Positions 15,714 through 55,208 of a DNA stretch of 64,000 nt are shown here, one piece after another. The translations under genes were made by a program, and so were the position numbers. The notes under the pieces were generated by a model. The model saw only the letters and a program-made list of their open reading frames with translations. It was not told where the DNA came from and made no database searches. Positions within the stretch are counted from its first letter, which is position 1. Each line of letters begins with the position of its first letter. This stretch comes from Methanobrevibacter millerae (lineage in GTDB: Archaea > Methanobacteriota > Methanobacteria > Methanobacteriales > Methanobacteriaceae), in contig NZ_CP011266.1 of assembly GCF_001477655.1 (NCBI RefSeq), positions 310,001 through 374,000 of the forward strand, written 5' to 3'.

Positions 15714-16772
15714 AAAACTTTACCTTCTTGAATTTAATAATAATCAATTATAAAAATTAATGTTTATTTAAAAATCAATTCAAATAAAATTTAAATTAAC
15801 AAATATATAATTGATTATATTAGATATTTCTAATAACTATTATATAATGGTTATTAATGCAGTGTTGCATACTCGTCGGAAAATACATTAAACATTTAAT
15901 TCTTTCTGTATAATTTGATCCAGGATTAAAATAATCTTCCCATAATGGTCGGAAATTATGATTGCACTACTATCACTGCATTGATACTTTCGTTTATAAA
16001 CAGAAGTAGTGTCATTTATTTCAAAGTTATCTTTTCCTTCCCTATAAAGTTTAGATTAACATTTTAGAGATTTTTCTATCTCAGATACAATTAAAAAATT
16101 ATTTTTGATTGTTTTATTTTTCACTGCATAAATGATAAATAATGAATCTATATCATCACTAAATTCAATGAAACCTTTTTTTATTAATGCAAAAACTTAA
16201 TAATTTATCTAACCAATTTAAATCTGTGGTGGTTTTTTGGATTATACTATTATTTATACTCCACTCAATCTTTAACCATTACTATGACTTTAAAATTACT
16301 ATTAAACTCATTAAAAGTTTTAAAATATTTCTTTTTTTGAAATATCATTTTTTGGATTTAAAAATTTAGTGTATAACATATTATAGTTTAAAAGAAGAAT
16401 GATACGATTAAATTGATTTTAATCTTGTTACTTGTATTTTAATTAAGTCTCTATGGCATTAAAATTTGATAAATAGTTTTAGTATTTATTATTTTTTATT
16501 ATATTTGTTGTTGTATATAAATTAAAGTATAATTTAAAAATAGAAATAAATTTAGACATTTTCCGACGAGTATGCAATACTGCTAATTATATTGGGGAAA
16601 TAATATCAAAAGCATATAAAAGAAAGTATGGAACTAAAGAATCAATAATTAATCAAATTAATGGAAAGGGTTGGATTAAAAACCAAAAAAAATCAACAAA
16701 CATAATACTAAATTATTTAAATCATATTTGATATATATTAACATAATTCTAAAAAATAATTGAGTTGAAAAA
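15714..16772. other. 1-kb intergenic region between divergent adhesin genes
   Basis: Very AT-rich, with no intact gene. It contains a ~725-bp segment framed by 26-bp inverted repeats and short coding-like remnants: on the minus strand near 15890-16010 a frame containing VYKRKYQCSDSSA, and on the + strand near 16555-16730 a frame containing YIGEIISKAYKRKYG. The TATA-like sequence at 16728-16740 probably belongs to the 2284-aa adhesin. Confidence 0.6.
15859..16583. repeat. Segment bounded by 26-bp inverted repeats (possible element relic)
   Basis: The 26 bp at 15859-15884 and at 16558-16583 are inverted copies with one mismatch (core TTGCATACTCGTCGGAAAAT). Both contain a GC-rich CGTCGG core that stands out in this AT-rich gap. 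The enclosed DNA has no open frame of useful length but shows coding remnants. I could not identify a clear target duplication outside the repeats. It could be a decayed insertion sequence, a MITE, or an inverted duplication of a gene fragment, since the right copy lies in a short open frame. Confidence 0.5.
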
Positions 16773-23820: not shown

Positions 23821-25702
23821 CAATGCCGTCAACCTAATTTTTAATTTCATATTTTTTTCCTTTTATGTTGGTCTGTAATTCAGATTGAATTTTCTCTGTT
23901 TTTTAGGGTTTCTTTTTGTTGTCTGTTTTTTCGTGGATTTGTTTGGGGATTTCGTGCAGGAAATTATCAGATTTTTTGTGTAAGTTCGTATTATTTCTGG
24001 TGTTGGGTTTAAAATCATTATAGGCAAATATTTTTTTAATTTTCGAATTAAGTGTGCTTGATTTACCTTGAAGAGTCCAAGTTTTCCTTTTTGTCGTTGC
24101 GTTCTGTTTATTAGTAGGTTGAAGTAGTTTTCGTAATGTTGAAAGACGTTATATTTTAGGAATTTTGAATATATGTCTTGTTCTATTGTTATTCTTTTTT
24201 TGCCGCTGTAATTTTCGATGTTTAGTCTGTTTTTCATTGTATTGTAGTTGGTTTCGATTCCCCAGCGTAAATTATAGAGTTCTTTAAAATCTTCGATTTG
24301 GAACTCTTTATTGAAAATGTTTGTTAATAATGTTTCTGTTTTTCCATTATCTAGTTCAATGGTTAGTATTCTTAGATTTAGATGTTCTTCTTTTCCATAT
24401 TCTTCTTTTAATGAGGGGTTGTGGAATTTTTTTATTCTGTCTTTGGTTAGTTTGATTTTGATTTCGGAGTCGTTTTCTTTAATTGTGTACCGTTCGTCTA
24501 TGTAGCTTTTATCCTTTAATCTGACTATAAAATAACTATTTATGGACATTATGTGTGCGTATAGTTCCATGGCATTGTATCCTCTGTCAAATATGAAAAT
24601 TGATTTTTCTGGGATTATTAAGTCTTGAATGTTGTCAAGATTTTGGTGCATGAGTGGTAATTCTGCTTGTTTGTAGTTTCCTATGATTCCATCGAGTATA
24701 AATCCGTTTAATAAGTCCATTATTGATGAAAATTTGGCTATTGCAGGTTTTCTGTATTTTGGTGTGTCTTTGATTCCAAAATCTCTTCGCACTTCTTCAA
24801 AATCAGGAATTTCAAAATCAGATTCGTCACCACCATACAAACGAAAACCTTTGTATTCCTTAAAAAAGTGATTATTTCTATTATAACCAATTAAACGTAA
24901 ATATTCTTTACTTATTTCTTTAAATACTAGTGGATTTATGAATACTCTTTGTTTGGATAGTGCTTGTCTTGTTATTGTTTCGAGATTGTTGGTGAAATCA
25001 TCTTCGATGAAATCTTCAAGATCTGCTTGATTGGAAGTGCCTTTGTTTACGCAAAAGAAAGTCACATAATCTTTGAATGAAAATTTACTATCTCTTGTAA
25101 ATCTTTTTTCATCAATTACAAAGAATGATGCTGGTTTTACAATATTATCAATTGCTGATTTAAAATAAGAAAACATGAAGCATCACAACACCATACTGGG
25201 ATGAAAAAACATTAAAAATACTGTTTATTTCATTTTTTAAACATTTTACAGCAACTTTCAAAAATTCTATTTTTTCGCAAAAAATAGAAAGATTAATTAA
25301 TTTGTTACCCCAATATAGTATTGAGGGTTTGTTATTTTCTCGCATAATATATAATATACCCTCAATCCTTAATAAAACTATCCATACTGCTTCAATACTG
25401 TTTTTAAAATCAAATTACTATACTATAAATTAACAAATTCATGAATATCACTCGATTGAAAATCAACATGATTACATGATAGTACGAGCAAAATAAAAGG
25501 ACCTTTGATTAAATCGGATTTTAATAGTAAAGTTTAAATAATAATGGAGCATAAATATTCATTTAAATGAAGTATACTAGTTAAAAACAAACTTATTTTA
25601 AAAATAAAGAAAAATAAACACCATATAAAGACAATAAATTAATAATATATTAATAATAACTAAAATAAGACAAATTAGAAAAAATTAGGTTGACGGCATT
25701 GA
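23821..25702. mobile_element. Complete IS4-type insertion sequence, 1882 bp
   Basis: Perfect 22-bp terminal inverted repeats, beginning CAATGCCGTCAACC, occupy 23821-23842 and 25681-25702. They are flanked by the 10-bp direct repeat AAAAAAAATA. One transposase gene fills most of the element. The 0.5 kb between its start and the right end (25177-25680) is non-coding and contains an inverted repeat (TATTGAGGGT / ACCCTCAATC around 25319-25365). Ends starting CA and a 10-bp duplication fit IS4-group elements. Everything appears intact, suggesting recent movement. Confidence 0.9.
23863..25176 (-). CDS. IS4-family DDE transposase
   Basis: 437 residues. The C-terminal catalytic block YNLRWGIETNYNTMK is the Y-x2-R-x3-E-x6-K (YREK) signature of IS4 transposases and supplies the catalytic Glu. 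The second Asp lies in IFIFDRGYNAMEL near residue 200, and the first is probably in the LDGIIGNYKQAE region near 158. A Lys/Arg-rich tail follows. It performs cut-and-paste transposition using the 22-bp ends. No frameshift or stop is visible, so it is potentially active. It lies 17 bp downstream of the HEPN stop without damaging it. Confidence 0.9.
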   Translation of the reverse strand: MFSYFKSAIDNIVKPASFFVIDEKRFTRDSKFSFKDYVTFFCVNKGTSNQADLEDFIEDDFTNNLETITRQALSKQRVFINPLVFKEISKEYLRLIGYNRNNHFFKEYKGFRLYGGDESDFEIPDFEEVRRDFGIKDTPKYRKPAIAKFSSIMDLLNGFILDGIIGNYKQAELPLMHQNLDNIQDLIIPEKSIFIFDRGYNAMELYAHIMSINSYFIVRLKDKSYIDERYTIKENDSEIKIKLTKDRIKKFHNPSLKEEYGKEEHLNLRILTIELDNGKTETLLTNIFNKEFQIEDFKELYNLRWGIETNYNTMKNRLNIENYSGKKRITIEQDIYSKFLKYNVFQHYENYFNLLINRTQRQKGKLGLFKVNQAHLIRKLKKYLPIMILNPTPEIIRTYTKNLIISCTKSPNKSTKKQTTKRNPKKQRKFNLNYRPT

Positions 25703-25712
25703 AAAAAAATAA
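25703..25712. repeat. Target-site duplication, right copy
   Basis: AAAAAAAATA follows the right terminal repeat and is identical to the left flank at 23811-23820. Confidence 0.8.
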
Positions 25713-25728
25713 AAAGATCAACAAATAA

Positions 25729-26097
25729 TTATAAAAATTTTTTAGCTTCATTCATGAATTCTTCAGCCTTATTGATACAATCATTGGCAATAGTTTGATC
25801 AATATCATCAACAGCATCATAATCAGCGGCTTCTCTTAAAGATTGTGTGCTTGACAAATATTTAGAGATTTTTCTGTCAAAAGAGTCATTCAAAACATAC
25901 TCTTGACCAAATAATGAGATCACGCCAGTATGCGTTTTAGGTTTGAATCCTTTTTTAATCAGTAATGTTTTAGCAACATTGAACATGCAATAATAACATG
26001 CACTAACACTGGTGGAAAATTGATCAACATCATACAATGCCTTAGCGGAAATCAATTTATCATTTGCTTTGTTCATATACTCCTCAATTTCAGACAA
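25729..26097 (-). CDS. HEPN-domain toxin (HepT-like)
   Basis: 122 residues, wholly alpha-helical, with the HEPN (PF05168) pattern: AKALYDVDQFSTSVSACYY, then FNVAKTLLIKKGFKPKTH, then a long C-terminal helix KAEEFMNEAKKFL. HEPN proteins paired with MNT nucleotidyltransferases act as RNA-cleaving or otherwise toxic partners (family knowledge). A clear RxxxxH ribonuclease motif is not visible here; the nearest is KPKTH, so nuclease activity is uncertain. The TTG start overlaps the MNT stop by 8 nt with GGAGAGG before it. An ATG seven codons later with GAGGAG is an alternative. Confidence 0.82.
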   Translation of the reverse strand: MSEIEEYMNKANDKLISAKALYDVDQFSTSVSACYYCMFNVAKTLLIKKGFKPKTHTGVISLFGQEYVLNDSFDRKISKYLSSTQSLREAADYDAVDDIDQTIANDCINKAEEFMNEAKKFL

Positions 26098-26395
26098 GTA
26101 CCTCTCCCTCCGCTAAAACATTTGATAAAAATGAATAATCTTGTGTTGTATTGAATCTATCTGTACTCATTATGTGAGCAGAAATCAATTCCTGTTTCTC
26201 AAGAACAAACTCTCCAATCATATCTACAATATCATCCCAGATTTCACTGCGATAATCAGATATTATTAAAATGTCTATGTCTGAATTTTCAGTGTCATCG
26301 CCACGAGCAACGGAACCAAATAATATAATTTTCACGATTTTATCGGAATTTATTGACTCTGCAAACTCACGAGCAATCTCAAATCTATTATTCAT
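26090..26395 (-). CDS. MNT-type minimal nucleotidyltransferase (antitoxin)
   Basis: 101 residues with the polymerase-beta nucleotidyltransferase signature LFGSVARGDDTENSDIDILI (GSxARG plus two Asp) at about residues 29-48. It is the upstream partner of the HEPN gene, with overlapping ends. In MNT/HEPN modules the MNT protein neutralises HEPN, in studied cases by AMP transfer to it. I take the ATG with GGTG seven nt upstream as the start; a TTG two codons earlier is also open. An 18-bp palindrome lies about 85 bp upstream. Confidence 0.88.
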   Translation of the reverse strand: MNNRFEIAREFAESINSDKIVKIILFGSVARGDDTENSDIDILIISDYRSEIWDDIVDMIGEFVLEKQELISAHIMSTDRFNTTQDYSFLSNVLAEGEVLV

Positions 26396-26477
26396 AAACA
26401 AACACCAACGATTATTCTTATAATATCCTATTTCAATTTCATTAATAATAAATATTTTTGAAGTGTGACTTTGTGTG

Positions 26478-26495
26478 AAAACACAATTGTGTTTT
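26478..26495. promoter_or_regulatory. 18-bp palindrome upstream of the MNT/HEPN pair
   Basis: AAAACACAATTGTGTTTT is a perfect palindrome in the region upstream of the MNT start. It could be an operator for autoregulation or a terminator arm for the broken Bro-N gene; both are inferences. Confidence 0.4.
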
Positions 26496-26697
26496 TATAT
26501 TGGGGTGTCTGCCAAAATTAATTTTTGAATTTTGCGAAAAAACTTTCCTTTACATATATCTGACAACCAACAATATCTTACACACCACTTCAAGTGCATA
26601 TATATCGGTAGACCATAGTGCAGAGTAGATGAAACCCCATTAATAGTGCATAATCAGCCGGCATCTGAAATTTTTACTTGAAAATGCATGCTTGCAG

Positions 26698-27534
26698 CTA
26701 CTTTAAATTTTCATCCAATAGCCTTGGATTTTTAGAATTTTTACTGCTCACAATTTTTCGTCCAGTTCGCTCTTCCAATTCCCTTAAAGCATTGCCTGCA
26801 ATGTTTCCTCCATCTCTTGCAACTATTTTACTTTCTTTAAAACCTTTTGGATTTTCAGTTTTGCTAATTTCAGTAGTGGCCAACTCACCCAACATGTTAA
26901 TAACCAATTCCGCATTAGTCATATTGTCACGAAGGTTCTCTTTTTTCAATCCTTTAATCTTTTTATGTTCTCCTGTTGTTATGCCAAAAGATGCTTGACT
27001 AATCTCATTGGTGAGTATTGCATATTCCCTTCCTTTTTTAACACCTGCCATATCCCATTCAGAAGTTAAATCCTTTCTTATTTCAATACTCCTTAATCTT
27101 TGGGTGATTCATTCTTCACTATATCCTTTTTCACGGTAAGTGGCAACTGCCCTTTCAATAGCTATTTCAGGGTCTGCTATCTCATCAAGTCTTTCACTGC
27201 CCACTTGAGCTAACCATTGTTTAAATGGTTCAGCATTTGGTGAAGGTATTGATTGAATGATACGGAATAACTGTTTTGCTGTAGCAACATCTGTTTTATA
27301 CATTTTACCGTCTTTATGTGATGGTAATTTCAGTTGGTTACAAATTGTAACCAACTCAACACCTTCATATTTAAGTCTTTTTTTCAATACTTTCCAATAA
27401 TTATTTGGATTTTTACTTTCACTAAGAATTCCAACAACGTCCACTACTGAAAAATAGTACTCTTCTATTTCATCATCCCATTTCAGCCTTACTTCCTGAT
27501 TTTGAAATAACTTAATTTTTGTTTCATCAGCCAT
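26698..27534 (-). pseudogene. Bro-N family antirepressor-like gene with one nonsense codon
   Basis: A single frame of 279 codons including the stop is interrupted only by TGA at 27109-27111. The N-terminal half (YYFSVVDVVGILSESKNPN, WKVLKKRL, DVATAKQLFRIIQSIPSPNA, WLAQVGSERLDEIADPE) is a Bro-N domain as in phage antirepressors. The second half (RLRSIEIRKDLTSEW, GLKKENLRDNMTNAELVINM) is its usual C-terminal extension. The TGA sits where relatives carry Trp (NWI/xRL context), so one TGG-to-TGA change explains it. The start has AAAGGAG. It was probably acquired from phage or a mobile island, now inactive unless read through. Confidence 0.78.
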
Positions 27535-28175
27535 TTTCTTTCTCCTTTAATTTATTGTCCCCATTTCATAATATTATGTGAAAAACTAATCAGTAAGACG
27601 AATATCATATGAATAATTAAATTGACAATGGTATTTTTAGTGAAAATCCTATTTAAATTAAATGAGAGACCATTTGAAAAGTATTGATTATATGATAATA
27701 AACCCTCCAAATTAGTTTTAATAGTTACTATATGAAATTCCATTATGCACAAACATGAAAAAGATTTATCATTGATGAAAAAAAATAGATTATTTACAAA
27801 TTATCCAAGTGGTAAGTACACGAAATTCAAACTACCTACTTTTTGTTTGTCAAAATCAAAATGACCTTCCTGAAGAACATAATAATTATGAATAAGCATT
27901 GCTGAAGCACTAATTAAAGGATTTGGATTGGGATAAATAATCCATATTTAATTTTAATAGTATAAATAATTTTTATTTAGTTCAAAATCAACTAAAAATT
28001 GCTTTTATTGGGTAAAAAAATAATTAATGATAAAATATTTAAGCAATCTTATGAATTTCCAATTAGTAATTTCAGATATGCTGATGAATTTTTAAATCAT
28101 AAGAAACATAAGAATCATAAAATTTTTTTATGTTCTTTAGTTTCTGAAGATTAAAACTTTTTTTGAAAACAAATT
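27535..28175. other. Gap with direct repeat and decayed coding fragments
   Basis: It contains the left copy of the ~112-bp direct repeat (27712-27824). After this come fragments that read like worn-out protein: around 27850-27935 in one frame LPEEHNNYE, then after stops ALLKH and LKDLDWDK; and around 28020-28154 an open tail containing YEFPISNFRYADEFLNHKKH that ends in SEDxx-stop. I do not recognise either fragment. No intact gene is visible. Confidence 0.5.
27712..27824 (+). repeat. ~112-bp direct repeat bracketing the DUF4143 ATPase, left copy
   Basis: It matches 30245-30356 with only a few substitutions and two 1-nt indels, and shares blocks such as GAAATTCCATTATGCACAAA and GATTATTTACAAATTATCCA. 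Both copies are in the same orientation, 2.5 kb apart, one on either side of the ATPase gene and its upstream minisatellite. Confidence 0.85.
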
Positions 28176-29627
28176 TCATAAAAATGAAAATGTCATTGGA
28201 GGTATGTAGATTACATTTTCTTTCCTTTTTATTGTTTTTGTATTATTTGCAACAACTATTCCATATTCACAATCATATCTGTTAATGGCATCTTCAATTT
28301 GATATTTCTTTTTCTTTCCACGACCCACTTCAATTGGAATGATGTTTTCGGTTTCCTCCTGGATTAAAAAATCGACATTAGTTTTTTTGTTTGCATCATA
28401 GTATATTGTGAAATTGGTGAATCTCCTGTTGGACAGATTAAAGAGATTTGATGCTATTAGATTTTCTAATAGAAGTCCTTCATAATCATCGCTTCCAAGT
28501 AATGGGTTTCCAACTTTTCTTGACAGTGCGTGTCTGATGCTAGGTGTTGCAAAATAATATTTCCATGATTTTTTAACCCTTTTGGCTGAACCTCCATATG
28601 CTTCGCAATGGAAAATCAGATGGGTTTTTTCAAGCAGATCCAATATTTTATTGACATTTGCAGTGGATGTTTTTAAATAATTCGCAAGATTTGCATGTGT
28701 TAACTCACCAGGCTGTTGGAGGGCAAAATATCTTAATATTCGTTTTGCATTTGATTGATTAGCGGATGAGAGTTCTTTTATCTGGGACAGGTCTTTAGTA
28801 ATGACTCTTTCTGTTATTTCAACTAAATCTTCACATATCTCCCTGTGTGTCTTTTTATCAAAAAGTATTGGAAAAGCACCGAATTTAAAATATTCATCCC
28901 AGTCATTAGAATTGTATTTTATGCAATTAGTCAGCATACTGTTGGTTTCAAATTCTGATTTGACGGCACTATCTATATTTCCGGTAAATATCAGATTTCT
29001 TAAATCATCCGATAGGTTAAATGTATTTAAGTCATATTTTAATTTAAGGTGTTGTGTGTAGTTTAAGGGAGTTATTGATTTTTTACGCATTCTCCTTGCA
29101 AGATCATCATTTTGTTCCAGATGGAGTGCTGATGAACCTGTAAATATGACGAATATATTATATGATTTATCATAGATGATTTTTCCGGTCTTTGCCCATT
29201 TCTTATCGATTTGTGATTCATCGATGAATATGAAAACCTTTTCGTTTAAAGTTCTTAAGTTCTCATTAAACACGTCCTTTAAATATATTTCAACCATTTC
29301 ACGAATGCTGCATTCAACAAAATCATTTAAATCATCAAAAGACATGTATAAGATATTTTTGGGAGGAATGTTCTTTTCTTTCATTAAATATTCATAAAGC
29401 TGCAGAATCAGGGTTGTTTTGCCAACTCCTCTCAGGCCAGGTAAAACTACAATCTTATTTGATGTATCTTCATTTAAAAAAGTATCAACATATCCTTTTA
29501 GTTCATTTAATTCATCCCTTGCATTGAATTTTTTATTATTTTTAGATAAATCTCTGCTTAAAACATTAGGAACATCATTCAATTCATTTTTAATAAAATT
29601 AGAAATTAATTCTTCTTTTTTTAACAT
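28176..29627 (-). CDS. AAA ATPase with DUF4143 domain
   Basis: 483 residues. The Walker A box LPGLRGVGKTTL lies near residue 60 and Walker B VFIFIDESQ near 130. A sensor-like FVIFTGSSA and an AAA_14-type lid follow, then a winged-helix segment (LTHANLANYLKTSTANVNKI) and a C-terminal DUF4143/nuclease-like part with FLIQEETENIIPIEVGRG, where the E-x-x(K/R)-like strand resembles PD-(D/E)XK folds. Such ATPases are abundant and often mobile in archaea and gut bacteria; their function is unsettled. I use the ATG after AAGGAG (at 29637-29642). A TTG 12 codons upstream would start inside a palindrome. The gene is bracketed by a long direct repeat, suggesting insertion as a unit. Confidence 0.85.
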   Translation of the reverse strand: MLKKEELISNFIKNELNDVPNVLSRDLSKNNKKFNARDELNELKGYVDTFLNEDTSNKIVVLPGLRGVGKTTLILQLYEYLMKEKNIPPKNILYMSFDDLNDFVECSIREMVEIYLKDVFNENLRTLNEKVFIFIDESQIDKKWAKTGKIIYDKSYNIFVIFTGSSALHLEQNDDLARRMRKKSITPLNYTQHLKLKYDLNTFNLSDDLRNLIFTGNIDSAVKSEFETNSMLTNCIKYNSNDWDEYFKFGAFPILFDKKTHREICEDLVEITERVITKDLSQIKELSSANQSNAKRILRYFALQQPGELTHANLANYLKTSTANVNKILDLLEKTHLIFHCEAYGGSAKRVKKSWKYYFATPSIRHALSRKVGNPLLGSDDYEGLLLENLIASNLFNLSNRRFTNFTIYYDANKKTNVDFLIQEETENIIPIEVGRGKKKKYQIEDAINRYDCEYGIVVANNTKTIKRKENVIYIPPMTFSFL

Positions 29628-29657
29628 TATGTGCAACTCCTTAATCCAATACTTTCT

Positions 29658-29743
29658 ATTCAAATATTTGAATTATCTTATATATAATATTATTCAAATA
29701 ATTAAACAATTATATATAAATAATTGTTCATATATTTGAACAA
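29658..29743. promoter_or_regulatory. Cluster of TTCAAA palindromes upstream of the ATPase
   Basis: ATTCAAATATTTGAAT (29658-29673) is a perfect 16-bp palindrome just upstream of the ATPase start. TTGTTCA / TGAACAA (29724-29743) repeats the half-site in inverted form, with a further ATTCAAATAATT between them. The layout resembles a multi-site operator over the promoter. The ATPase contains a winged-helix segment, so autoregulation is possible but unproven. Confidence 0.45.
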
Positions 29744-29898
29744 ATGGAATTATATTTATTTTTACAAATAAAATATATTAACATTTAAATCTATAAAATT
29801 ACTCATTTAATCATAATATTAAAGAAAAAACTAGTTATTTATAATTTATTCCAAACAGATCTCATTAAATAGGATTTATTAAATTTTTTCATTGATAT

Positions 29899-30097
29899 AC
29901 TTTACAATTTTTCCAATTTTTACTTTACAATTTTTCCAATTTTTACTTTACAATTTTTCCAATTTTTACTTTACAATTTTTCCAATTTTTACTTTACAAT
30001 TTTTCCAATTTTTACTTTACAATTTTTCCAATTTTTACTTTACAATTTTTCCAATTTTTACTTTACAATTTTTCCAATTTTTACTTTACAATTTTTT
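29899..30097. repeat. 23-bp minisatellite, 8.6 copies
   Basis: Eight identical head-to-tail units start every 23 bp from 29899 (unit core ACTTTACAATTTTTCCAATT), and a partial ninth begins at 30083. Three units equal 69 bp, so an apparent open frame with a 23-residue Phe-rich period runs through it, but that is a by-product. There are no spacers, so it is not a CRISPR. It lies between the ATPase promoter and the right copy of the ~112-bp repeat. Confidence 0.95.
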
Positions 30098-30244
30098 CCC
30101 CAAACATTTTTTATTAAAAATACCATATAACATTAAATTAATCATTAAATATCAATTTAAAAATAAAATCAAAAATGCATGATTTTTTTATTCATTCAAA
30201 TTTTACATTAGTTTTTAATGGATACTATATGATTTTAAGTGGTC

Positions 30245-30356
30245 TTAGTTTTAATGGTTAGTATATGAAATTCCATTATGCACAAACATGAAAAAGATTT
30301 ATCATTGATGAAAAAAATAGATTATTTACAAATTATCCAAAGTGGTAAGTACATGA
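30245..30356 (+). repeat. ~112-bp direct repeat bracketing the DUF4143 ATPase, right copy
   Basis: Near-identical to 27712-27824. It ends 30 bp before the start of the four-helix membrane protein at 30387 and so probably contains that gene's promoter or 5' leader. A short frame starting MHKHEKDLSLMKK is open through this copy to 30373. Confidence 0.85.
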
Positions 30357-30386
30357 AAATAAATTACTTTTAGGAGGTGTTGGCAA

Positions 30387-30791
30387 ATGGTAAATTTTGA
30401 CTTAAAAAGATTGATAATAGGAAGTGTGGCAGGATTAGTCATTTCCTTGGTCATTGGGCTTGTTATATTCTGGCTGACTTTGGGAAGTGTTAAGCTATAC
30501 GATGCTGGAGTTTATTCTACAGGATTCACTGAGTTTAGTTTTGTTGTTGGAGTAGTGATTGCAGCTGCTTTGTTTGGATCAATGGAAAGGGACATAGTCT
30601 CTGCAGGAATTGTAGGTTTCATCATCGGCCTTTTGACCTGTTTGATTGAAGGATTTGTTTTAAGTCTCTTTTTTGCACCAATGACTGTACAAATCATCAC
30701 TGGCTGGTGGGGAAGTCAAACTATCCTAATTTTTGCTGGTGTAATAGTAGCTGTTATCTTCAATATGATTTTTTCAAAAAAATCGAACTAA
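30387..30791 (+). CDS. Four-helix membrane protein
   Basis: 134 residues with an AGGAGGTG site ideally placed. Four hydrophobic spans (about residues 9-33, 48-65, 70-95 and 105-128) with Gly-rich small-residue faces (SVAGLVISLVIGLVIFW, AGIVGFIIGLLTCLIEGF) and a Lys-rich C-terminus. It is similar in style to the DUF5518-like proteins of methanogens, but I cannot confirm a family. It is convergent with the TMEM175-type gene. Confidence 0.75.
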   Translation: MVNFDLKRLIIGSVAGLVISLVIGLVIFWLTLGSVKLYDAGVYSTGFTEFSFVVGVVIAAALFGSMERDIVSAGIVGFIIGLLTCLIEGFVLSLFFAPMTVQIITGWWGSQTILIFAGVIVAVIFNMIFSKKSN

Positions 30792-30813
30792 CAAAAAAAT
30801 ATAAGTTACTTTT

Positions 30814-31590
30814 TTAACTATCATTACCATAAATGCTTTCTCTGATATTTTCTAATAATTCCTTTTCATCATCAGTTAATTCGAGGTCATTCAACTTGTC
30901 TTTTGATGTACGTCTCATACGGATTACAAATCTTAAAATCAATATCAATACGAATGATAATATGCTTGCCAGAGGTGAAAAGAATGCTAGGATAAGGGAT
31001 ATGACTGAACTGAGAACAGGCGTCATCAATATGTAGAACAGTGTCAGCATAACTCCTCTGAAATATAATTTTAAATTGTCTAATTCAACTCCATCATTAT
31101 ATGTTTCATTCACAGTAGCCTTTATTTCGTCTTTTTTTTCGAAATACTTTTTAAAATTGTCTCTGACAAGCAACATGAACATTAGTATGTATAATAGACT
31201 GATTATTAAAACCAGCAATGAAAAGAATATATTTACATTAGTATAATTGTAGAATTTAAAGAGAAATCCTGTTGCAAATGGTATTAAACATACAGATGCC
31301 ATTGTAAGCATATTTAATGTTAGTATGCTGTCTTTTATCTTTTTAAATTGAAAAAGAAGTGTTGTGTTTTCCCAAAAATTGTAAACAATATAAAAACTTA
31401 TGAAATAAATCAGGATTGACGGCAATAGATACGTCATGAAATATTCATTTAAAGCAACCCCTGAAGATATTTCAGATATTGTCGGGACTGCAATTTCCAA
31501 AACAAGAATCGTCATTGCGATTGCAAAAACACCGTCGGTTATTGCAACATGCCTGTCTTTTAAATTATTTAAAATGTTATTGTTTGTCAT
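30814..31590 (-). CDS. TMEM175-family (DUF1211) ion channel
   Basis: 258 residues. The N-terminus contains RHVAITDGVFAIAMTILVLEI, which carries the family signature (F/I)(S/T)DGVFAIAxTLLxLEI in the first helix; its hydrophobic residues line the pore of prokaryotic TMEM175 potassium channels (family knowledge). About six hydrophobic segments follow, then a basic linker and an acidic C-terminal tail. Bacterial and archaeal TMEM175 proteins have one such 6-helix unit and assemble as tetramers. A role in potassium or general cation leak is inferred. Confidence 0.85.
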   Translation of the reverse strand: MTNNNILNNLKDRHVAITDGVFAIAMTILVLEIAVPTISEISSGVALNEYFMTYLLPSILIYFISFYIVYNFWENTTLLFQFKKIKDSILTLNMLTMASVCLIPFATGFLFKFYNYTNVNIFFSLLVLIISLLYILMFMLLVRDNFKKYFEKKDEIKATVNETYNDGVELDNLKLYFRGVMLTLFYILMTPVLSSVISLILAFFSPLASILSFVLILILRFVIRMRRTSKDKLNDLELTDDEKELLENIRESIYGNDS

Positions 31591-31644
31591 CGATATAATT
31601 AGAGTTTTCTTTTTATTTAATGTTTTTTGTTGTTATTTTTAAGT

Positions 31645-31687
31645 TTTTTTAAAAAATAAAATGTGTTAAAGAATATTGATTCTTTAA
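31645..31687 (-). terminator. Terminator of the truncated peptidase/adhesin gene
   Basis: A 9-bp perfect stem TTAAAGAAT / ATTCTTTAA with an ATTG loop is followed on the minus strand by a T-rich tract. It overlaps the stop codon. Confidence 0.75.
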
Positions 31688-33147
31688 TTTTTGATGGTTA
31701 TTCTGTTTGATGTTGCAGCGCCGTTTTCATAAGTGGATGTTATGATGTATTCTCCGGCCATTAGGTTGATATTCAGTTTTGCAGTTCCATTTTCGTCAGT
31801 TGTTCTGTTGTAGAATACTCCGTTTACGTTGAATGTTATTGTCACGCCTGTTAATGGGTTTCCTTTACCGTCAAGGAGTGTTGCTTTGAACTGTGATCCG
31901 TCTTTGTAGGTCATATCCAAATCTTCGGCGCTTAATGTTGGCAGTACTGTTATGTTGTATGACATTTGAAGGCCTGTTAATGGGTCAATTGCAGTTAATG
32001 TGTATTTGCCTGGATTTAGGTTGATGTTTAGTTTTGCTGTTCCGTTTTCATTGGTGGTTCTGTTGTAGAACACTCCGTTGATGTTCATTGTAATTGTGGT
32101 GTTAGGAATAGCATTTCCTTCGCCGTCAATTAATGTGATGTAGAACTGTGATTCGTTTCTGAAGTATTTAACCAAATTATCTGCTATTAATGTAGGCAAT
32201 ATTGTAATGGTATTTTCAACAGTTGTTCCATTATATGTTGTTTTAATTGAATACTCGCCCGGTTTAAGATTAATGTTTATGCGTGCAGTACCATTTGCAT
32301 CACTGGTTCTTGTATAATTATTGCCATTGATTTCAAATGTTATTGTTTGGTTCGCTTCACCTACATCAACTTCAAATTGTGATTCATTTTTATATATTTT
32401 AACTAAATCTTCGCTTATTATTGGGGTGTTGGACTCTTTTGTATATACTTTAAGGCACACTGTTTGGTTTTGTTTTGAAAGATCGCTCCATGTGTTCCCG
32501 TCACTGCTTACATAAGACATTCCGGACAATAGGTGTTGTCTTGTTTCATCCTGATAAGGTACATTATTGCTTTTGAATACGACTTTGAATGTGTCATTTT
32601 CTTTGATTGGAATGTTTTTATTTAATTTTATTGTCTTGAATCCTGCAAATGGGCTTGTTCCGTTTTGTGTTAGTTTTAAATTATCATTTACATATATCTT
32701 GAATTCGTAGTCAACTCCTGTGTCGTTGAAGTAGGTTCCGACAGCTGCTATGTCTGCTTTTTCAACAGCTTTAAATTCATTGCTGTAGAACGTATAGTTA
32801 TTTGTGAAATCCTCGAGACATGTAAAATCTGTCTGGTAATTGTATGTGTAGTTTTCAGTGTTTTCTATTATGAATGAGAATGTATAATCAATACTTTCTT
32901 CTTTAGGATAAACTGATGTATCGTAATATGATATGTATGCATATCCTTTTTCTCCCCAGTTATCTGCCCAACTGTTTTTTATTATCCATGCTCCGTTACC
33001 TAGTGGGGTTATTTTAAAGTTTTCCTTAGGATAATTGTCATCCCAGCCTATTACAGCAACATCATGATTTGCTTCGTATGTGTTGTTGTGATATACTGAA
33101 TTTGTTTTTTCATTGAAATATTCAGTTTCAGCATCAAAACTTATTAA
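31684..33147 (-). pseudogene. Truncated papain-type (C1A) peptidase with adhesin C-terminal modules
   Basis: The frame is open for 487 codons up to a TGA at 33148-33150 and has no proper start. Its first part holds the second half of a papain-family peptidase: the catalytic His in ANHDVAVIGWDDNYP and the catalytic Asn in WIIKNSWADNWGEKGYAYIS. A lectin-like beta-domain typical of archaeal and clostridial C1A surface peptidases follows. The last three ~85-residue modules are the same INGVxYxRTT/LNINL type that ends the giant adhesins. The N-terminal lobe with the catalytic Cys and the signal peptide is missing. Homology stops within a few bases of an iron-sulfur-subunit fragment on the other strand, marking a rearrangement junction at ~33140-33150. 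It cannot be an active peptidase. Confidence 0.78.
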
Positions 33148-55116: not shown

Positions 55117-55208
55117 TATAATTAATCAATAATTTTCATTTGAAATGATTAGTTTTCAAATGCTCTCTCACTTTCTTTATATAGGTGTTGTTTTCTAATA
55201 TATTAAAC

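Follow-up and report, generated by a model that had tools for sequence, protein, structure and literature searches.

A long direct repeat around a DUF4143 ATPase gene of Methanobrevibacter millerae is probably a remnant of provirus attachment sites of the arsA leader

The locus described here raises the question of how a direct repeat of more than 100 bp came to bracket an ATPase gene in the methanogen Methanobrevibacter millerae. The window, i.e., the whole stretch of 64,000 nucleotides that was analyzed, comprises bases 310001-374000 of a single 2,543,538-base contig. Two copies of the repeat (27712-27850 and 30203-30373, both on the + strand) were found in it, with 94% identity over 124 bases. 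A sequence-only reading of this DNA had reported near-identical copies in the same direction at 27712-27824 and 30245-30356, and these were recovered as the core of the alignment (73 nt at 97% plus 30 nt at 100%; spacing 2532-2533 from start to start), with the right copy exceeding the length given there and showing family similarity from ~30203. A whole-genome search returned just these two copies, and the next-best match in the genome was 19 bases long (E 0.0066); the pair is therefore far beyond chance and undispersed in its own genome.

As had also been read from the sequence, the copies enclose the ATPase gene, its palindromic upstream region, a tandem array and some gene debris, and the right copy adjoins the start of a + strand gene. 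The AAA_14/DUF4143 ATPase (28176-29627, - strand; 483 aa) also matches the PADLOC candidate family PDC-S01 (E 5.7e-37, with six further PDC-S01 models matched) and is predicted to be a candidate member of a defence family. Together with the palindromic region upstream of it (29657-29743), the gene forms a module (28168-29779, - strand) that is common to G013, G011, G010 and G014, where it stands in other surroundings with 84-91% DNA identity and with the repeat absent from the stretches fetched. In G010 the module lies directly upstream of arsA, and in G023 a copy of the repeat family and the ATPase 3' region match the window in their order and direction. Two copies of the module in G011 set no ends for it because their flanks are shared (99.98% over 5.4 kb). 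The 23-bp array (29898-30096, + strand; 8.7 copies, 100% match) is located between the ATPase promoter and the right copy. Part of the debris (28094-28173, + strand) was identified as a remnant of a third, diverged family member; it matches the part adjoining the repeat in G064, G049 and G019 and stops where the ATPase module starts. The right copy ends in TTACTTTTAG directly 5' of the ribosome-binding region of a 134-aa ORF (start 30387), for which no protein relatives were confirmed in genome contigs.

The left copy is located in the upstream region of a Bro-N gene that we take to be dinD-like (26698-27534, - strand), which has one in-frame stop at 27109-27111 and intact relatives elsewhere (278 aa in G057). 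Both G057 and G060 have a family copy at the corresponding position. The broader surroundings form a mosaic whose modules occur singly elsewhere, including an MNT/HEPN module (25702-26487), the dinD module (26698-27735) and a TMEM175 module (30821-31621), and PADLOC candidate families were matched by the MNT protein (PDC-S09) and the intact dinD-like protein of G057 (PDC-S13) as well as by the ATPase. The matches listed for the locus were to separate modules, and among them there was neither a syntenic relative of the window locus nor an intermediate stage of its arrangement. The end region beside a DDE transposase gene (25200-25734), which meets the MNT/HEPN module at ~25702, has stretches of 98-99% identity in the same genome at G000:C1:270107-270642 and 2056649-2057156.

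The repeat belongs to a ~160-bp non-coding family with matches in 25 of 67 genomes of the genus, its own included (E<=0.01). The right copy served as the first query, followed by a sequence-only model built on 15 members, 13 of them from other genomes, the seeds being matches by construction. The model search gave 36 rows, 31 with E<1e-4, consisting of the two window copies and 29 copies in other genomes. Among these 29, 17 share a contig with arsA (three in G063, two each in G060 and G015, and one each in G020, G057, G053, G050, G040, G021, G013, G019, G056 and G036), and all 17 are upstream of arsA, on the opposite strand and in one orientation, 16 of them within ~12 kb and one (G020) at 51 kb. 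The remaining 12 either have arsA on a different contig or come from a genome in which it was not found (G051). The five rows above the threshold (E>1e-4) and the two copies of the window were excluded from this tally; among the excluded rows, G020 67843-67959 lies on the arsA strand, where an attR arm would be expected. The association with arsA is partly built in because the model holds the seeds and has arsA-leader positions in its tail, and among the non-seed rows 11 of 16 were on the arsA contig under the same rule of position and strand. No near DNA relatives were found in the plasmid collection. Occurrence at many loci as an unrelated dispersed element had been named beforehand as the outcome that would speak against an insertion-related repeat, and this applies by half: the family does occur in other genomes, often beside arsA, but it is undispersed in its own. 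A structured RNA as the nature of the repeat was rejected on the absence of consensus pairs over the 15 family members and on an Rfam search of 26000-32000 with nothing near the gathering score.

In several family members the far end runs into a TATA box followed by TTTAGTAACTAAAAGTA, a string that is the arsA 5' leader and could be read in most of the arsA loci fetched. From 66 genomes with arsA, 60 leaders were fetched, three of which were too short for sorting; the 57 others comprised 43 native leaders, 10 with an arm by pattern and four classed as other, those four showing an arm by eye and two of the leaders sorted as native (G037, G027) appearing altered by eye. The gap between nadE and arsA is short in some genomes (e.g., G001, G002 and G038), and others have inserted genes there. 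Across the other genomes (loci L120-L179) this gap is an insertion hotspot whose contents differ by genome and include Panacea-type antitoxin, IrrE-type peptidase, ATPase_2, dinD-like and DUF4143 ATPase genes.

The most complete case was found in G020, where the family copy (16418-16613; arsA start at 67976, both contig positions) makes up the virus half of attL for a head-tailed provirus of ~51 kb that occupies the arsA 5' leader and has a tyrosine integrase and attR at its far end, beside arsA. The attL and attR have ACTAAAAGTAA in common directly and an 18-base arm in common inversely, and joining the two flanks restores the leader of provirus-free genomes, a result obtained for G020 only. 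The genes read between attL and attR include those for the large terminase, a tail-fibre protein, a pseudomurein endoisopeptidase and an MCM-type helicase, as well as a second recombinase gene (L181 2020-3069) that is near adhesin- and fibre-like genes and is possibly an inversion module. The integrase matches phrog_1 (E 2e-12), its match to Pfam Phage_integrase (E 4.5e-5) being below the cut-off. Nine loci with related integrases were read, and in four of them (G020, G023, G042, G032) the integrase is beside the arm, the core and the arsA start; the other five are at different places. The arm motif GTWASTATATGAAA is exact on both sides of the core in G042 and G023, so that arm sites flank the core on both sides in this family; in G020 it is exact in attR with two mismatches in attL, and the G020 arm is diverged (96 of 144 columns against the left copy of the window). 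The proposal from the sequence that the repeat is tied to insertion or recombination is supported. A search for a free virus carrying the arm or a close integrase found none; relatives of the G020 integrase were not confirmed in viral contigs, and the arm DNA of G042 had no match in the phage collection.

In the 64-kb window, all four GTWASTATATGAAA matches fall in the repeat, two per copy. They start at 27724 (no mismatch) and 27812 (two mismatches) in the left copy (27724-27825, + strand) and at 30257 (no mismatch) and 30345 (one mismatch) in the right copy (30257-30358, + strand). Their placement and not their number is the evidence here because ten shuffled windows gave 2-10 matches each compared to the four in the real window. 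The window copies are the same arm twice and no attL/attR pair, the arsA promoter half is absent from both by alignment, and a paired attL/attR with an integrase was not found at this locus. The arsA gene of this genome is ~125 kb from the copies and has a native leader; the copies share its strand, opposite to the orientation of the 17 copies on arsA contigs elsewhere. Relatives of the G020-type integrase in this genome have 38% identity at most. The left copy has a chimeric start, the join with the dinD-side flank lying within an iteron; compared with G057, identity drops from 95% (as far as 27735) to ~78% (27747 onwards). Because the switch sits inside the iteron and the sequence beyond it is right-copy-like (read by eye), the left copy is taken to be a recombinant.

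We consider it probable (roughly 0.62) that the repeat is the arm part of the chromosomal attachment site of tyrosine-recombinase proviruses and that the window copies are decayed arms of successive integration or recombination. We propose that the repeat brackets foreign genes because it is left over from the docking sequence of a virus. Since neither an integrase relative nor arsA was found within the 64-kb window, we can only infer integrase action as the origin of these two copies; they would have been transferred from an arsA-type hotspot, and the order of events in the window would have been the following. In the intact cases, the integrase would recognize the short core ACTAAAAGTAA in the arsA 5' leader and would also use GTTASTATATGAAA-like arm sites near the virus ends. 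After integration, one end consists of the arsA promoter, the core and a ~160-bp arm, and the other of an arm, the core and the arsA ribosome-binding site. In the window, related elements probably integrated or recombined successively with the loss of most of each, which would leave two arms in the same direction plus part of a third. An ATPase module that moves separately would have ended up between the two arms, and the left copy would be the recombinant beside the dinD-like gene. Homologous recombination between arms may have done much of the reshuffling, as the left-copy junction points to it, and an arm may also have been duplicated or converted between the left and right places.

An integrase would be unneeded if the repeat were a promoter/leader cassette carried along by homologous recombination with single genes, dinD-like ones among them; capture of the arsA promoter would then account for the likeness of its tail to that promoter. 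This is unlikely in our judgement, but it accommodates three observations: a dinD-like gene has the repeat on its upstream side in the window as well as in G057 and G060, G040 carries the repeat just upstream of arsA where a provirus is absent, and the junction of the left copy is a homologous-type switch between iterons. It does not accommodate the dinD-like genes of G016 and G052, which lack the repeat, and the same sequence is a provirus end in G020, G023 and G042, accompanied by the integrase, the arm motifs and the core at arsA. We regard as improbable the suggestion of the sequence-only reading that the left copy is a duplicate, here a recent one, of the right copy and so of the upstream region of the 30387 gene. 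The two copies are nearer to each other (94%) than to any other family copy found (84% at best), as a recent duplication would have it; the left copy, however, retains a stretch, AACTACCTACTTTT, that is partly missing from the right copy, its start meets the dinD flank at a different iteron, and the family occurs without the 30387 gene, a relative of which in G004 has no repeat sequence upstream. The left copy instead stands at the dinD-like gene. That the repeat is a small mobile element of the non-autonomous kind (solo or MITE-like), copied twice at this locus, is very improbable despite the family copies without a neighboring integrase in several genomes, since its own genome holds two copies only, the copy ends vary, the alignments show no target duplication, the copies cluster at one chromosomal site in a single orientation, and the repeat is found at the provirus ends in G020. 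Target duplication by an insertion sequence, set aside from the outset, fails to explain a repeat of 112-160 bp with 94% identity and no transposase ORF between its copies in the ORF list.

Upstream of the dinD-like gene and beside the left copy is a promoter box, AATACTTTTCAAATGGTCTC (27666-27685, - strand), which fits the pattern AWTASTTNYCAAATGCTCTC with one mismatch; a second site in the window is at 55148-55167. The genome has 34 box sites (<=2 mismatches) compared to none for the reversed pattern, and the 67 genomes of the genus have 1582 in total compared to six in control columns. Outside the genus the distribution is uneven, with at least one site in 127 of 138 genomes of the family and none in 10 of 20 genomes of genus g12. 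The reverse form (<=3 mismatches) was detected at all nine integrase loci scanned and upstream of the dinD-like genes of G057, G060, G016 and G052, and was absent from the dinD-like loci of G018 (contig end) and G005. The target, defined as the longest ORF starting within 260 bases, was read for 30 of the 34 own sites. Nine of these ORFs are TnpB-like (three checked by Pfam), and the box count is inflated because some TnpB targets are copies of one element. Targets supported by Pfam include a UvrD-type helicase, Top6B, an OB-fold RPA-like protein, two DEAD-type helicases, DUF763, MCM, UvrA and the anaerobic ribonucleotide reductase. Among the box-target proteins are some that we presume to be Hef, Hel308 and a MutS-like protein, the latter with no Pfam match. 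In G038, 13 of 17 box sites precede relatives of the 30 ORFs, as do 8 of 26 in G085, which belongs to another genus, and the targets also include Hjc (G038 and G085) and NurA (G085). Judged by these sequence matches, the box set looks like a candidate DNA-damage regulon of Methanobrevibacter and some related genera. A literature search found no published description of the box in these archaea; papers on Orc1-2 reportedly concern the Sulfolobales. More tentatively, and at somewhat less than even odds, the island may be a piece of a damage-responsive mobile-gene network in which the arsA leader is a recurrent dock for virus arms and defence modules and one promoter box, ATTACTTTTCAAATGCTCTC ahead of a TATA-like sequence, marks an SOS-like regulon in which the integrases and the dinD-like gene are joined by uvrA, MCM, Top6B, several helicases of repair type, and genes for Hjc, NurA and RPA-like proteins.

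With the repeat understood as an attachment-site arm, a long repeat becomes a readable trace of provirus integration, the arsA leader of these methanogens is indicated as a hotspot at which viruses and candidate defence genes insert, and the attachment-site sequences are now open to testing. An SOS-like response in these archaea would become directly testable through a box common to DNA-repair genes, integrases and the dinD-like gene.

The repeat family is best read as attachment sites of a known type, those of tyrosine-integrase proviruses, placed here at the arsA 5' leader. A literature search, with most subscription journals beyond its reach, found no published description of an attachment site in the arsA leader, and arsA is not mentioned in the accessible part of PMC11705971. 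The target-site duplication of an insertion sequence is similar in being a direct repeat around foreign DNA, whereas the window repeat is longer than 100 bp, has diverged ends and belongs to a family that extends beyond the locus. The available portion of PMC8371274 reports both intergenic and coding attachment sites as well as tandem integration of archaeal mobile elements. Such accretion resembles the window in having several attachment-type sequences in the same direction with foreign genes between them, and differs in that the window retains no complete element. Msmi-Pro1 of M. smithii is likewise a provirus of a gut Methanobrevibacter, and the same portion of that paper names a coding gene, for heavy-metal cation efflux, as its target, compared to the arsA leader here. 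Closest are the sites of MSTV1, vir080 and psiM2/psiM100, which also belong to head-tailed Methanobacteriales proviruses with a related tyrosine integrase; the G020 integrase has 38-39% identity to those of MSTV1 and vir080 and 28-29% to those of psiM100 and psiM2. According to the sections available, psiM100 uses an intergenic AT-rich site (PMC8371274) and the MSTV1 integrase carries out excision at the attachment sites of that provirus (PMC12134362). Compared to these, the present family has its site in the arsA 5' leader, and the copies in the window are remnants that are unpaired and stand without an integrase.
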